34,356 nt of DNA from a virus, in the IMG/VR virus record IMGVR_UViG_3300032132_000189, positions 1-34,356 of that record. The stretch is one strand, 5' to 3'. Position numbers and translations under genes: made by a program. Shown here one piece after another: positions 17,904 through 34,356 of this stretch (its first letter is position 1; every line of letters starts with the position of its first letter). Under the pieces are notes generated by a model, which had not been told where the DNA came from, ran no database searches, and worked only from the letters and a program-made list of their open reading frames with translations.

Positions 17904-19046
17904 ATGAATATCTCAAAAATTGCAAAGTTCGGTATGGCCGCATTAGTAGTAGGAATTGCTACTTCGTTCGCTACAGCCGACACTAACGCAGAACTTCAAC
18001 TAAGACTTGAAGCCGCAGAGGCAAGGATTGCCGAACTAAGTGTATCAGATAGTGATAACTGGTTGAACAACCAACGAGCCGAAGCGACTCGCCAACTTGT
18101 TCACGATGTTCTTGCTGATGCAGATTCAAGAGCAATGATGCAAGGTAACGGAAACCCAGTAACAGTCAATGTTCACGGGTTCTTACAAACTCGCTACTCT
18201 TACAGTGGTGGTGGTGATGATGAAGCCAATCGTGGTTTCAATCTTCCCCGCGCCCGCCTTATCTTTTCTGGTGATGTATATAACTGGGAATATAAGGTAA
18301 GTGGTGAGTGGAGCGACAGCACCAATACCTTTGACCTTCTAGATGCATATGCAGAAGGTGGTCTTCTTGGTGGAAATGTCCGTGTAGGTCAGTTCAAAGC
18401 ACCGTTTATGCGTGAGGTACTTGTCAATCAGGCAGATACTCTTATGACAGAGCGTTCAATCGTGTCCAATCAGTTTGGTCAAGGTCGTTCGCAAGGTGTT
18501 CAATACAGTCGTGACTTCGGTATGCTAGATTTTGCTGGCGCATATACCGATGGTTTCGATACTGCTAATGGTGCAGGCGTTCAAAACGGTTCAGCATTGA
18601 CTGCTCGTTTTGGTGTCGATGTTACCGACTGGTGGAATGTTGGCGCAGCCATTTCATACAATGATTTGGTTGATACTGACTACACCACTTACACTCTTGA
18701 TACTTTGGTATCAACAGGTGGTCTTGACTTGAGTGCGGCTTATGTTGCAACTAGCGGTGACGCTGGCGACAACTGGGGTGCAACTGTTCAAGCAGGATAT
18801 ATGTGTATGGATAACTTCCAAGGTTTCGTTGCATACGAGATGGGCGAACTTGAAGGTGTCACTGAGAACCTAAGTATCTTTACAGTTGGTGGGAATTACT
18901 TCATCAACGATAATGTCAAGTGGACAACCGAACTCGGTTATGCACTAAATGGCGTTAACGGTGCTTGGGATTTGGGAGAAACAGGTTGGCGTGCTGGCGA
19001 CAGTGGCGAATATGTTCTTCGTACCCAAATTCAGATTTCATTCTGA
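17904..19046 (+). CDS. Outer-membrane porin-like beta-barrel protein
   Basis: 380 residues. Signal peptide MNISKIAKFGMAALVVGIA, likely cut after residue 25. Residues 29-46 form a short coiled coil (ELQLRLEAAEARIAELS), typical of porins that trimerise. The rest is strands with alternating aromatic residues: GFLQTRYSYSGGG, NLPRARLIFSGDVYNWEYKVSGEW, VRVGQFKAPFMREV, GVQYSRDFG, YEMGELEGV, with a final Phe (QIQISF), the classic barrel-assembly signal. Content and motifs (RARLIFSG, QFKAPF) point to the phosphate-selective porin O/P family (OprO/OprP type). AAGGAG precedes the ATG. A terminator follows. Carried by a phage, it may change nutrient uptake or receptor exposure. Confidence 0.8.
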   Translation: MNISKIAKFGMAALVVGIATSFATADTNAELQLRLEAAEARIAELSVSDSDNWLNNQRAEATRQLVHDVLADADSRAMMQGNGNPVTVNVHGFLQTRYSYSGGGDDEANRGFNLPRARLIFSGDVYNWEYKVSGEWSDSTNTFDLLDAYAEGGLLGGNVRVGQFKAPFMREVLVNQADTLMTERSIVSNQFGQGRSQGVQYSRDFGMLDFAGAYTDGFDTANGAGVQNGSALTARFGVDVTDWWNVGAAISYNDLVDTDYTTYTLDTLVSTGGLDLSAAYVATSGDAGDNWGATVQAGYMCMDNFQGFVAYEMGELEGVTENLSIFTVGGNYFINDNVKWTTELGYALNGVNGAWDLGETGWRAGDSGEYVLRTQIQISF

Positions 19047-28473: not shown

Positions 28474-29679
28474 TTATTTGTCCCAATTCTTTGCCGCAGT
28501 AAAATTCTGCATTGAAAATTCTAATCTATCTACTAGTTTTAAAGCCTTGTTGCTAATTCTATCTACTGCAACAAAACCCTCTGGTGAGGTTACTTCAAAA
28601 CCGTTTTCTGTTTTTATGAAAGTTCCTATCTGTTTAACTTTCTCTAATTGTCTAATAATGTATATTTTTGCTTTCACTAAAGATTGTCGCAAATCGAACA
28701 TCAAATCTATTTTGCTAGAGTTCTTACCAAGATAGGTAAGCAATTCTTGTCTAACCAAGTTTTTACGCTCTTTTGCGGCGTCAGTCTTTAATGAATCTAT
28801 AGATTTCTGCATTTTTGAATTCATATAATTTGAGAATCCCGCCGCAGATTCAGTCCCGCCGGCTCCCTGACGAACAAGACTGTTGCTATAGATTTTTACT
28901 TGTGAAATAATCATAGTTTGTGATAACAACTTATCTATAAAACTCTTTGAACTTTTTAATTTATTTTTACAATCCTTCAAAAGAGCATTTATATCACTCG
29001 TTTCCTTTCTTGTAAATGTTGCAGTCCCTGATGTATCCCTAAAATCTGCATCCGTAAACCAGACAGCCCTAGTCTTTACAAGAGAACTTACTTGTGGGTT
29101 AAAAGATGCTTTCAAATCTTTAATTGTCTTTCCTGTATATTTTGTATGCCAAACTACCCCAATTTTAGCACTGTTCATTTGTTTTGCTAAATCTGAATTA
29201 GCAGGAACGGAATAGGAAATGGTATTAGGCTGAAAAACGATATGTGATTCGCCATCAATGGTTTCTTTTGATATATCTCCACTGGTAAACATAATGTCTC
29301 CCTGAAGAATTCCTCTAATTCCCAATTTACCCAAATTTGATAAAGCAATTTTGAGTTTTGCGGCTAATTGACCAGAATGATTCTTGTCTACATCCGCACT
29401 TGTATAGTTTATTTTTGGTACAACATTGAATAATGATTTGGTCGCCACAAAAAACTTTCCGTTTTCTGGATTAATTCCTGCAAATACAGCAGGCGCACCA
29501 TCCCATTTTACTGTTACATTTATGGGTGATTTTGTATTTCCATCCAACATAGAAACCACCGATTCCATAAAAGAAATGGCTTCATTAACACCAGAAGAAC
29601 CGTCATTTAGAACGGAATCCTCTATATGTTCCATATGGAGGTTTTTACCCTCACTCAAAAAGTCTTTTAATCGCTTCAT
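28474..29679 (-). CDS. Ligase-fold nucleotidyltransferase-like protein (DUF6267-like)
   Basis: 401 residues. HMEHIEDSVLNDG then VKWDGAPAVFAG, with Lys 58 in a KxDG motif, the adenylated lysine of DNA/RNA ligases and capping enzymes; KFFVATKSLFN follows like motif III, and IRGILQGDIMF like motif IIIa/IV. The C-terminal 150 residues are helical. It resembles a conserved protein of T4-like marine phages, recalled as DUF6267. The N-terminus MKRLKDFLSE ends in Leu-x-Glu, matching T4 capsid-targeting peptides. GAGG precedes the ATG, and TATAAATA lies 22 bases upstream. An RNA or DNA ligase-like activity is a reasonable inference, unproven. Confidence 0.6.
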   Translation of the reverse strand: MKRLKDFLSEGKNLHMEHIEDSVLNDGSSGVNEAISFMESVVSMLDGNTKSPINVTVKWDGAPAVFAGINPENGKFFVATKSLFNVVPKINYTSADVDKNHSGQLAAKLKIALSNLGKLGIRGILQGDIMFTSGDISKETIDGESHIVFQPNTISYSVPANSDLAKQMNSAKIGVVWHTKYTGKTIKDLKASFNPQVSSLVKTRAVWFTDADFRDTSGTATFTRKETSDINALLKDCKNKLKSSKSFIDKLLSQTMIISQVKIYSNSLVRQGAGGTESAAGFSNYMNSKMQKSIDSLKTDAAKERKNLVRQELLTYLGKNSSKIDLMFDLRQSLVKAKIYIIRQLEKVKQIGTFIKTENGFEVTSPEGFVAVDRISNKALKLVDRLEFSMQNFTAAKNWDK

Positions 29680-32154: not shown

Positions 32155-32368
32155 CACACTCACCGCATTCACAGCACTTGCCCATAATCCACTTAAGCAA
32201 ACTACATTTTGTCTTTCTAGTTTCTACAGGCCAGCATTGATTACACGAAGGAACTTCGCCTAAATTGTTCATTGCTCTTTTTGCTGTTTTCTTGACTTCT
32301 GTTTCAGTAAGAAGGAGGTCTACTGGCACTCCATCCACTTCAATACAAGTATGTAAATAATCACTCAT
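32147..32368 (-). CDS. Small Cys-rich protein, 73 residues
   Basis: AAAGGAG precedes the ATG by six bases. The C-terminal half holds seven Cys in PSCNQCW, KTKCSLL and KCCECGECDD, arranged as one or two possible zinc sites. Short Cys-rich proteins ending CCxCGxC are seen in marine T4-like phages. Immediately downstream of the tmRNA gene. Function unknown; zinc-finger type protein interaction or nucleic acid binding is possible. Confidence 0.6.
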   Translation of the reverse strand: MSDYLHTCIEVDGVPVDLLLTETEVKKTAKRAMNNLGEVPSCNQCWPVETRKTKCSLLKWIMGKCCECGECDD

Positions 32369-32399
32369 AATATCTCCTTTACTGTCTGAGTTTTAAATG

Positions 32400-32690
32400 C
32401 CTTGGATGGGGTCGCCCCCACCCAAGGGTCCGTAGCCGCTCAAGCGGCCATTGCGTAACTGTTGTCAGTTAACTTTTTGCAACGCTTTTGTCAAGCCTCG
32501 TTGCCAACCTTGGGTATCTACTTCTTTGTTACTTACTATCGAATCGACTCCATTCGCCCCCATCAGAGACACCCTTGCGACTTATTGCTTCCTAATTAAT
32601 GTTATGTGTAAAAAATAAAATTAAGCAAGGGTGCCTCTGGTGGAGGCGGGGAGATTCGAACTCCCGTGTTCGATAACTTTTACTCCGATA
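32400..32690 (-). ncRNA. ssrA: Circularly permuted (two-piece) tmRNA gene
   Basis: On the - strand the acceptor piece comes first: a T-arm (32649-32665, loop TTCGAAT), 3' acceptor strand CGCCTCC (32642-32648), A, and an encoded CCA (32638-32640). A 76-base spacer follows, then the coding piece beginning GGGGGCGAATGGAGTCGAT at 32561. The acceptor halves pair over seven base pairs with G3-U70, the alanine identity element. TTCGATA (32537-32543) pairs with TATCGAA (32669-32675) as helix 2. The tag frame ends DNSYAMAA and TGA at 32440-32442, with the stop in the loop of a GCCGC/GCGGC hairpin. A 12-base-pair GCGA-capped hairpin (32400-32427) closes the gene. The 5' end of the acceptor piece is approximate. 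It rescues stalled ribosomes by tagging proteins for degradation. Confidence 0.92.
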
Positions 32691-32709
32691 TTAACAATAC
32701 CATTTCTAT

Positions 32710-32952
32710 TTAGTTACTTTGTTGAACAAAATCGTAAATCTTGTTTGCTTCAACTAAAATTTCTTCGTGCTTCGGAAATCCAGGCCGAACCCCAATAGGA
32801 CAAGTGGCAGTTATTTTCGTTCCATCTGCCTCTCTATCTCGTTTCCAATCTTGAAAATCTTGCCACAATGCGTGGTCTTGATAGAACTGGTCCATCAGCC
32901 TTTGCTGTGCCTGTTGGTAAATTTCGTAACGCAATTCATATGGATTTTTCAT
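32710..32952 (-). CDS. Conserved small phage protein, 80 residues
   Basis: Starts KNPYELRYEIYQQAQQRLMDQ with AAGGAG about nine bases upstream. The end (HEEILVEANKIYDFVQQ) resembles small proteins of T4-like marine phages that begin KNPFEIRF and end in a similar helix. Probably all helical; function unknown. It is the gene immediately upstream of the tmRNA on the same strand, 20 bases from the presumed RNA start. Confidence 0.6.
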   Translation of the reverse strand: MKNPYELRYEIYQQAQQRLMDQFYQDHALWQDFQDWKRDREADGTKITATCPIGVRPGFPKHEEILVEANKIYDFVQQSN

Positions 32953-33002: not shown

Positions 33003-33347
33003 CTAATCTTCCATTAGTCCTCTACCAAAATCTTCATATTTGGCATTCCGTTCTGTTTCGTATTCTTCTCGTTGAATCCATTTTGTTCGTTCTTCGTCGG
33101 TTTTACACTTATCCCAATCACTAGGAATATAGTTTTTATTATTCCATTCGTCCCAGATAAATTTCCATTCACGATTCCAAATCAATTCATCGGTCTTGTA
33201 TGCATTGTCAAGCATTTGTTGACCTCGCTCAGAAACCCACGCATCAAATTCGTGAGTAAATCTTGCGGTGTTCATTCCGCCATTATCTGCAAACTCATCT
33301 GCAAGAATAATATTACCAGTTATAAAACAATATGCACAATCGCTCAT
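33003..33347 (-). CDS. Hypothetical protein, 114 residues
   Basis: ATG at 33347 with GAGG seven bases upstream, overlapping the previous stop; the earlier ATG at 33365 is less likely. DCAYCFITGNIILADEF contains a CxxC pair and resembles a short zinc knuckle; RNAKYEDFG and WDEWNNKNY follow in a charged, Trp-rich C-terminal half. No family is recognised. Confidence 0.6.
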   Translation of the reverse strand: MSDCAYCFITGNIILADEFADNGGMNTARFTHEFDAWVSERGQQMLDNAYKTDELIWNREWKFIWDEWNNKNYIPSDWDKCKTDEERTKWIQREEYETERNAKYEDFGRGLMED

Positions 33348-33688
33348 ATTATATCCTCTTTCCACAGTTCGTCTGTGAGTTTATATTGAAGTCTTTCACA
33401 TTCTTTTTCTCCATCGCCTCTACATTTACCCGTAACAAATTGTTTTATGTGTATCATTTCGTGTACAACCGTAGCAACAAAATCACGAATGTTTTGGTCG
33501 TTGGCAATAGTAATATGGTATTTGTTGTTTTCTTCTTCTGAACAAGTTCCCCAACAATCATAATCTCTAAACTTTCCAATCCTCACATCAATATTGGTTT
33601 TTATTTTGTAATGATTAAAACACCACACAATAACCCTGTCTGTAATTCTTCGTTCGTGTTTTTTCCCACCAGTAATCTTAACCATCAT
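33344..33688 (-). CDS. SprT-like zinc metalloprotein
   Basis: 114 residues. VATVVHEMIHIKQFV contains the HExxH zinc motif, with a following acidic GDGEKECERL that could supply the third ligand, as in SprT-like and minigluzincin proteins. The N-terminal half (RVIVWCFNHYKI, DVRIGKFRDYDCWGTC, YHITIAND) has the strands expected before such a helix. A protease or DNA-protein crosslink repair role is possible. The start is 33688 (Met-Met). It lies just after the tRNA-Arg gene on the same strand. Confidence 0.65.
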   Translation of the reverse strand: MMVKITGGKKHERRITDRVIVWCFNHYKIKTNIDVRIGKFRDYDCWGTCSEEENNKYHITIANDQNIRDFVATVVHEMIHIKQFVTGKCRGDGEKECERLQYKLTDELWKEDII

Positions 33689-33699
33689 ATACCTTTCAA

Positions 33700-33772
33700 C
33701 ACGCCTGGCAGGATTCGAACCTGCGACTTGCGGTTTAGAAGACCGCTACTCTATCCACTGAGTTACAGGCGC
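33700..33772 (-). tRNA. tRNA-Arg (anticodon TCT)
   Basis: A 73-base cloverleaf. Acceptor GCGCCTG pairs with CAGGCGT (one G-U), anticodon stem GCGGT with ACCGC around loop CTTCTAA, T-arm GCAGG-TTCGAAT-CCTGC. CCA is not encoded. It reads AGA/AGG, which are frequent in the AT-rich genes here. Confidence 0.93.
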
Positions 33773-33776
33773 TCAA

Positions 33777-33850
33777 TAAGAGCGGCGGGACTCGAACCCG
33801 CACTTGACAGATTTTAAGTCTGTTGCCTCTGCCAATTGGGCTACGCTCTC
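33777..33850 (-). tRNA. tRNA-Leu-like (anticodon TAA) with short variable loop
   Basis: 74 bases. Acceptor GAGAGCG with CGCTCTT, anticodon stem ACAGA/TCTGT around CTTAAAA (anticodon TAA), T-arm GCGGG-TTCGAGT-CCCGC. The variable loop is only five bases, whereas bacterial tRNA-Leu normally has a long variable arm. Four bases separate it from tRNA-Arg. CCA is not encoded. Confidence 0.85.
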
Positions 33851-33883: not shown

Positions 33884-34356
33884 TCAAACATCAATGTCTT
33901 TCCAATCCTTTTCGGCAATACGATGTAATGCCCAATATCCCATTCCACTAGAAGGGTCTAAAACTTCATCACCAACTTCTTCAAAAATGAATGGACGACC
34001 ATTTACATACGAAGTGTAAATTGGTGAATCATATCCCATTCGTCCTCTCTTAAATACTTCTTTCTTTCCATAACTAATCCAATTATTTTTACAGTGATTT
34101 GTTCCAATCAAATATGCTTTTGCATCGGGATTGTTTTGAACAGCACCCTGTGGTACAGATAAAATACTATCTTGGTCAAATTCCTCACCAATACGCCGCA
34201 AATCATTTTCGAGATTCCCGCTATCTTTCAAGTCTACTACAAAAAAACTAATCTCTTTACCAACAAGTCCTGACATACCTTCAGGATATCTACCGTGTAA
34301 TGTTGTTACGCCATATCCTCTGGACTTCAGTTGTGATAAAAGACTCTTGTTTCGTT
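33884..34356 (-). CDS. DUF3293-like phage protein, N-terminus outside the window
   Basis: The frame stays open from the ATG at 34276 back to the window edge, giving RGYGVTTLHGRYPEGMSG before it, so the gene begins outside. Visible: 'EISFFVVDL', then LRRIGEEFDQDSILSVPQG and RPFIFEEVGDEV. The pattern 'GVTxLxGxYxE ... SFFVVD ... QDSIL' fits a conserved protein of T4-like phages similar to DUF3293. Function unknown. It lies upstream of the tRNA pair on the same strand. Confidence 0.6.
   Translation of the reverse strand, partial: RNKSLLSQLKSRGYGVTTLHGRYPEGMSGLVGKEISFFVVDLKDSGNLENDLRRIGEEFDQDSILSVPQGAVQNNPDAKAYLIGTNHCKNNWISYGKKEVFKRGRMGYDSPIYTSYVNGRPFIFEEVGDEVLDPSSGMGYWALHRIAEKDWKDIDV

Follow-up and report, generated by a model that had tools for sequence, protein, structure and literature searches.

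A circularly permuted tmRNA gene in a T4-like marine phage that probably infects planctomycetes

Can a phage bring its own two-piece ribosome-rescue RNA into a cell, and where would such a gene have come from? The question is raised by a locus on the minus strand of the IMG/VR virus record IMGVR_UViG_3300032132_000189, of which we analysed positions 1-34,356 (34,356 nt, the whole stretch being called the window hereafter). The initial annotation read the locus as a phage-encoded permuted (two-piece) tmRNA gene, and this reading has held: a complete circularly permuted gene lies at 32701-32400, where ARAGORN calls a tmRNA* (32349-32730, tag DNSYAMAA*) and where the Rfam family RF04321 (tmRNA_permuted) matches 32701-32440 with 68.4 bits (E 2.6e-11), above its cut-off of 47 bits and over the full length of the model; covariation, described below, points the same way. 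This was the sole non-tRNA match over cut-off in the Rfam scan of the window. ARAGORN and the permuted Rfam models had both been named as ways to check the reading; the former made the expected call, and with the latter the outcome was divided, as RF04321, in which the alpha, beta, and cyano models are merged, exceeds its cut-off, whereas the alpha-tmRNA and cyano-tmRNA models have no match over theirs. In fact, the gene falls below cut-off for all three lineage models (RF01849, RF01850, and RF01851; alpha/beta/cyano), the best one shown being beta, with 40.2 bits against a cut-off of 84. Matches to plant microRNAs were also below cut-off and are attributable to the long inverted repeat.

ARAGORN, RF04321, and the sequence itself bear out the order of parts that had been described, with an acceptor piece that ends in CCA followed by a coding piece, and the elements that can be located are as follows:

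32638..32701, minus strand: acceptor piece, with helix 2 strands, T-arm, acceptor 3′ strand, A, and encoded CCA (RF04321, ARAGORN, sequence, covariation)
32649..32665, minus strand: T-arm GGGAG-TTCGAAT-CTCCC (sequence; stem invariant and paired in 7/7 sequences)
32642..32648, minus strand: acceptor 3′ strand CGCCTCC (sequence; invariant in 7/7 sequences)
32641, minus strand: discriminator A (sequence)
32640-32638, minus strand: encoded CCA (sequence)
32562..32637, minus strand: intervening segment, predicted to be removed on maturation (sequence and covariation)
32555..32561, minus strand: acceptor 5′ strand GGGGGCG (sequence; invariant in 7/7 sequences)
32398..32561, minus strand: coding (mRNA-like) piece, 5′ end at 32561 (RF04321, ARAGORN)
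32479..32512, minus strand: PK1 pseudoknot, CAAG/CTTG and GCAACG/CGTTGC (covariation)
32440..32466, minus strand: tag frame GAC AAC AGT TAC GCA ATG GCC GCT TGA, read as DNSYAMAA and stop (ARAGORN)
32435..32448, minus strand: hairpin GCCGC-TTGA-GCGGC with the stop codon at the loop (sequence; 87% of cells paired across relatives)
32400..32427, minus strand: 3′-terminal 12-bp hairpin at the end of the coding piece (pairing in 98.7% of cells; 3 double-changed pairs)

The acceptor piece has its 3′ end at 32638, and the RF04321 match begins at 32701. The T-arm (32649-32665) and the acceptor (32555-32561) are found exactly where the initial annotation had placed them, and the acceptor of seven pairs that it proposed, G3-U70 included, is formed by 32648-32642 and 32561-32555. 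Helix 2, also given there as seven base pairs, contains in the segment UUAUCGAA/UUCGAUAG seven Watson-Crick pairs and one G-U pair. The alanine-type features of the acceptor end (G3-U70, T-arm, discriminator A, and CCA) are invariant in seven sequences. Five elements had gone unnamed, namely PK1, the tag frame, the hairpin at the stop codon, the 3′-terminal hairpin, and a 13-bp stem (32637-32625 with 32578-32566) that joins the flanks of the two mature ends. In the coding piece, whose 3′ end we infer from the conserved terminal hairpin, the resume context is TTAACT and then GAC, and the tag has eight codons and a hydrophobic AA end; the tags among the relatives are DNSYAMAA, DNSYSMAA, DNSYSLAA, and GNSFKLAA.

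Permuted relatives were found on separate contigs (L010, L086, L092, L093, L094, L097, and L098), and the alignment comprised 7 distinct sequences, that is, the window and 6 relatives. Overall, 95.2% of cells are paired, 17 pairs are changed on both sides, and none of 500 shuffles reached as high a covariation score; controls with slid partners pair in 40-48% of cells, a comparison that somewhat favours the structure because it was written from the window. The changes are located in PK1 (2 and 3 pairs changed on both sides in its two stems, which are 100% and 93% paired), in the flank stem (5 such pairs, 100% paired in the 7 sequences), in parts of helix 2, and in the 3′ hairpin. The acceptor and the T-stem never vary and thus contribute no covariation. 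The minus strand of the gene also folds 5.8 s.d. better than shuffles, and together these comparisons of sequence support selection on the structure. As for expression, L010 and L097 each have a near-consensus sigma-70 promoter (12/12 and 11/12 positions, respectively) that ends immediately before the precursor, and in L097 the coding piece is followed by a terminator, a terminator-like hairpin there taking the place of the 3′-terminal 12-bp hairpin; thus, at least in these phages, the gene appears to be an independent transcription unit. No convincing sigma-70 promoter was found for the window gene itself.

The phage has a T4-like set of genes in the window (family B DNA polymerase, UvsX/RecA, DnaB-type helicase, ThyX, and B12-type ribonucleotide reductase), and its nearest isolates are the pelagimyophage HTVC008M and the methylophage Melnitz (62% for UvsX and 45-46% for DUF6267). 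The neighbours of the tmRNA gene and one more distant gene that bears on the host are as follows:

33700..33850, minus strand: tRNA-Arg(tct) and tRNA-Leu(taa) genes, upstream of the tmRNA
33344..33688, minus strand: SprT-like metallopeptidase gene, upstream of the tmRNA (Pfam DUF6782/SprT-like, weak)
28474..29679, minus strand: DUF6267 gene, downstream of the tmRNA (PF19782, E 8e-115)
17904..19046, plus strand: gene for a porin-like outer-membrane protein of planctomycete affinity, a clue to the host

Two small ORFs separate the SprT-like gene from the tmRNA, and the same two tRNA genes also lie upstream of the tmRNA in L092, L097, and L098. At 33884-34354 on the minus strand, an ORF cut by the contig end matches the S-adenosylmethionine lyase family (PF23780, 29.8 bits) and is possibly an anti-restriction gene.

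Phage two-piece tmRNAs have already been published, and thus the window gene is of a kind with precedents. When the gene was compared with isolate phages by BLASTN, the matches were short and confined to the surroundings of the T-arm. The tmRNA database holds 79 phage sequences (PMC11915505), and the paper that described the two-piece tmRNA of Melnitz counted 402 tmRNA-bearing phages among 18,146 genomes, with 53 two-piece structures, of which 50 came from marine or aquatic samples (PMC9004378); the earlier remark that tmRNA is rare in phages therefore needs correcting. Like the window gene, the two-piece tmRNAs (SsrA) of Melnitz, Mosig, and HTVC008M are permuted and belong to marine T4-like phages (Kyanoviridae), but they are of alpha type, have other neighbours, and, where we compared scores, reach 113 bits (Melnitz) and 91 bits (HTVC008M) as opposed to 68 in the window. 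The window gene further differs from them in its eight-codon tag DNSYAMAA, in carrying a 3′ hairpin instead of the AACAGAA element, and in that the likely host of its phage has no two-piece tmRNA. That element, about 25-37 nt after the stop codon, is absent from the window gene, the sole match lying beyond the gene, and is present in L097.

This last difference depends on the identity of the host, for which the initial annotation had proposed a lineage with two-piece tmRNA. The porin-like protein suggests otherwise. A scan of the whole genome collection returned 6 relatives of this protein, four of them titled Phycisphaerales, Planctomycetota, or Planctomycetaceae, a fifth in a genome (G425) numbered within the series of the Planctomycetota set, and one in a Myxococcaceae MAG; matches were found in 61 of 150 Phycisphaerae genomes (best E 1.4e-36) and, as a weaker control, in 30 of 146 genomes of the phylum of the Myxococcaceae MAG (best E 7e-9). 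The porin is common to four other contigs with permuted tmRNA. It is thus likely that the phage infects a planctomycete, with the porin pointing to Phycisphaerae, an assignment that leans for the most part on a single gene family, and this family may have come by horizontal transfer. Since one-piece tmRNA exceeds the cut-off in 95 of 101 Phycisphaerae genomes, and permuted tmRNA does so in only 1 of 392 planctomycete genomes, the proposal of a host with two-piece tmRNA is not supported. The single exception (L117, G247:C27) is an alpha-like permuted tmRNA with a tag read as ANESYALAA on an AT-rich (low-GC) contig of a planctomycete MAG, which is probably misbinned. The one-piece genes of Phycisphaerae (RF00023), although unpermuted, resemble the window gene in the acceptor GGGGGCG/CGCCTCC, found in many, and in the resume context (TAACT and then G) and AMAA tag ends, each found in several; the tags of the permuted group end in AMAA, SMAA, SLAA, or KLAA, like planctomycete tags such as AKPQFAMAA and ANNNYAMAA. 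The porin-like protein of the window has no Pfam match, and its gene could be a receptor or an exclusion gene.

Very probably, the gene yields a functional two-piece tmRNA, and it belongs to a marine phage that is T4-like (related to Kyanoviridae) and probably infects planctomycetes. Given that the anatomy is complete, trans-translation would be the function, and it would have to use the SmpB of the host, as no phage SmpB was found in the 18 phage records searched. A single transcript would fold back on itself by way of the 13-bp flank stem, the acceptor, and the T-arm; RNase P and the 3′ tRNA-processing enzymes of the host would cut at 32561 and after 32638; and the acceptor and coding chains would stay paired via the acceptor and helix 2. 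Host AlaRS could then charge the RNA, and host SmpB and EF-Tu would deliver it to ribosomes stalled on broken mRNA, which would append (A)DNSYAMAA and be released, leaving the tagged product to ClpXP-type proteases of the host. The gain for the phage would be free ribosomes at a time of high mRNA turnover, and it is plausible that the phage thereby supplies its own ribosome rescue during infection. Several DUF6267 relatives are without a detectable tmRNA, and the gene would thus be dispensable.

Two other roles have to be weighed. The phage RNA might be a decoy that titrates host SmpB or AlaRS and so blocks trans-translation by the host, as has been proposed for tmRNA-like RNAs that consist of the tRNA-like domain (TLD) only, for example, in phage DS6A, and there is precedent for a similar molecule that inhibits tmRNA (PMC4131195, PMC11915505). 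The lack of a phage SmpB in the 18 records would fit such a role, but we consider it unlikely, as the relatives all maintain PK1, the stop codon, the tag frame, and the resume context, none of which a decoy would need. It is highly improbable that the gene is a non-functional passenger or what is left of an attachment site: integration commonly takes place at tmRNA genes (PMC11915505) and some relatives are missing the gene, but it is complete, covaries, and keeps a conserved locus, and no integrase was recognised among the translated ORFs of the window. A separate candidate for a TLD-only tmRNA, resembling that of phage DS6A, was seen at about 1419-1528 of L083 (LR756508.1, a 484-kb uncultured phage); it measures about 110 nt, has no tag, and presents a GGGGGCG/CGCCTCC acceptor with G3-U70, a T-arm, and a long helix 2 (RF00023 27.4 bits, below cut-off, with E 1e-9 in a small search; fold z -2.9).

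How the permuted form came to this locus is a different matter, and the readings that follow are about origin and are no rivals of the functional explanation. In a related phage, L009, which was found via DUF6267 and not via its tmRNA, the same locus holds a one-piece gene (RF00023, 113.9 bits; tag GNNSYSQAA). The window and L009 share the SprT-like gene upstream (46-47% identity), the DUF6267 (55%) and cytidylyltransferase (46%) genes downstream, and a trypsin-like gene (31%), and L009 and the permuted L011, on the same contig as L086, also have a phosphatase-like gene in common. The SprT-like gene stands directly before the permuted tmRNA in L092 and L097 and about 210 bp from the one-piece tmRNA in L009. 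A second one-piece relative, L267/L268 (137.8 bits, tag GNSYALAA), has just upstream of its tmRNA a gene with 69% identity to one that lies a short way upstream of the permuted tmRNA in L011. The tag module is nearly identical, and the 42-nt resume/tag module of L267 is the best non-group match to those of the window, L010, L086, and L092, with the reverse also holding, a similarity that was partly selected because L267/L268 were found with a tag pattern. The genes of L009, L267, and L268 are unpermuted, with 331-335 nt and more sequence between tag and T-arm than the window gene. Thus, with permuted genes in the window and L097 and a one-piece gene in L009 at the same locus, the topology was switched, or swapped, within the phage clade; the DUF6267 tree gives no clear answer as to whether L009 falls inside the phages with permuted tmRNA. 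That modules of this RNA recombine is shown by L097 (7183-7563), a mosaic that combines a window-type acceptor piece, an L086-type PK1, a tag segment most like that of Mosig, and, after the tag, an AACAGAA element as is typical in alpha/beta-type genes. Near the one-piece genes, a manA RNA motif (RF01745) was seen in L267 (8436-8645) and in L268 (8580-8789).

A tree of 168 columns, built without a reference set of bacterial alpha, beta, or cyano genes, unites eight permuted genes, the window included, in one group (support 100/99). Eight of the nine alpha-type permuted rows (L117 and seven from phages) stand apart, with 98/96, from the rows of planctomycetes, of one-piece genes, and of the group, the ninth (L084) having a long branch and an unsure placement. 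In this tree of linearised genes, the window group shares a side with the planctomycete and one-piece rows; its partners in the best tree are the one-piece L009 and L267, with weak support (59/53). The group looks distinct from the alpha-type two-piece tmRNAs of phages. AU tests, meant to reject a single origin of permutation, failed to do so and did not reject its grouping with alpha (p 0.14-0.21), with beta (0.40), or with all permuted rows (0.15), an outcome explained by the small number of columns and the absence of bacterial reference sets. A scan for genes with a cyanobacterial-type start returned two one-piece tmRNAs, and a match in the marine virus AG-345-P14 (H59) proved not to be a tmRNA at that place.

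It is quite possible that the permuted form arose inside the phage clade, where a one-piece tmRNA of planctomycete type, already carried by the phages, would have been its source, and this would make it a fourth independent permutation. The occupation of one locus by a one-piece gene in some related phages and by a permuted gene in others, the reciprocal best match of the L267 module, the 98/96 split together with the weak joining to L009 and L267, and the failure of the alpha, beta, and cyano models to reach cut-off all argue for this origin, although the alpha, beta, and all-permuted groupings stand unrejected in a tree with no bacterial reference set, the four nucleotides before GGGG (TGAT) and the flank stem of the window resemble those of alpha/beta permuted genes, and the likeness of L267/L268, though not that of L009, owes something to the search by tag pattern. 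It is also possible that a permuted gene entered from an alpha/beta-type source, for instance, from pelagimyophages, and then exchanged its tag module by recombination with one-piece phage tmRNAs at this locus. The mosaic L097 speaks for such an import, as its AACAGAA is found after the stop codon in most alpha-type phage genes and in JWDelta and is absent from the genes of the other group members and from 51 of 54 one-piece calls; in addition, the related isolates Melnitz, HTVC008M, and Mosig have alpha-type two-piece tmRNAs. However, the genes of these three isolates form a separate, supported clade, the tmRNA of Melnitz and HTVC008M lies tens of kb from DUF6267 and that of Mosig has other neighbours, and the 3′ hairpin common to window-type genes and L010/L086 suggests that the alpha-like end of L097 is a later import. 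Permutation in place and import with exchange of the tag are thus about equally likely, and the sequence tree does not decide between them.

Permuted tmRNA is on record from three bacterial lineages and from organelles, and to our knowledge, the route from a one-piece to a two-piece gene is not known. This clade may hold a fourth independent permutation, made in place and inside phages, with both topologies at one locus and hosts that have one-piece tmRNA. As the two forms share a locus in this phage clade, there are close relatives among which the change and its intermediates could be sought. The findings also suggest that phages may supply a rescue RNA whose topology their hosts do not have, a situation that would test whether an ordinary SmpB and ribosome can work with a two-piece tmRNA. 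Two-piece tmRNAs were also seen in five isolate phages whose records carry no tmRNA annotation there, namely, Achromobacter phage JWDelta, Erythrobacter phage vB_EliS-L02, Rhodobacter phages RcSimone-Hastad and RcRudolph, and Mesorhizobium phage Cp1R7A-A1 (L165 and L275, L276, L277, and L278).
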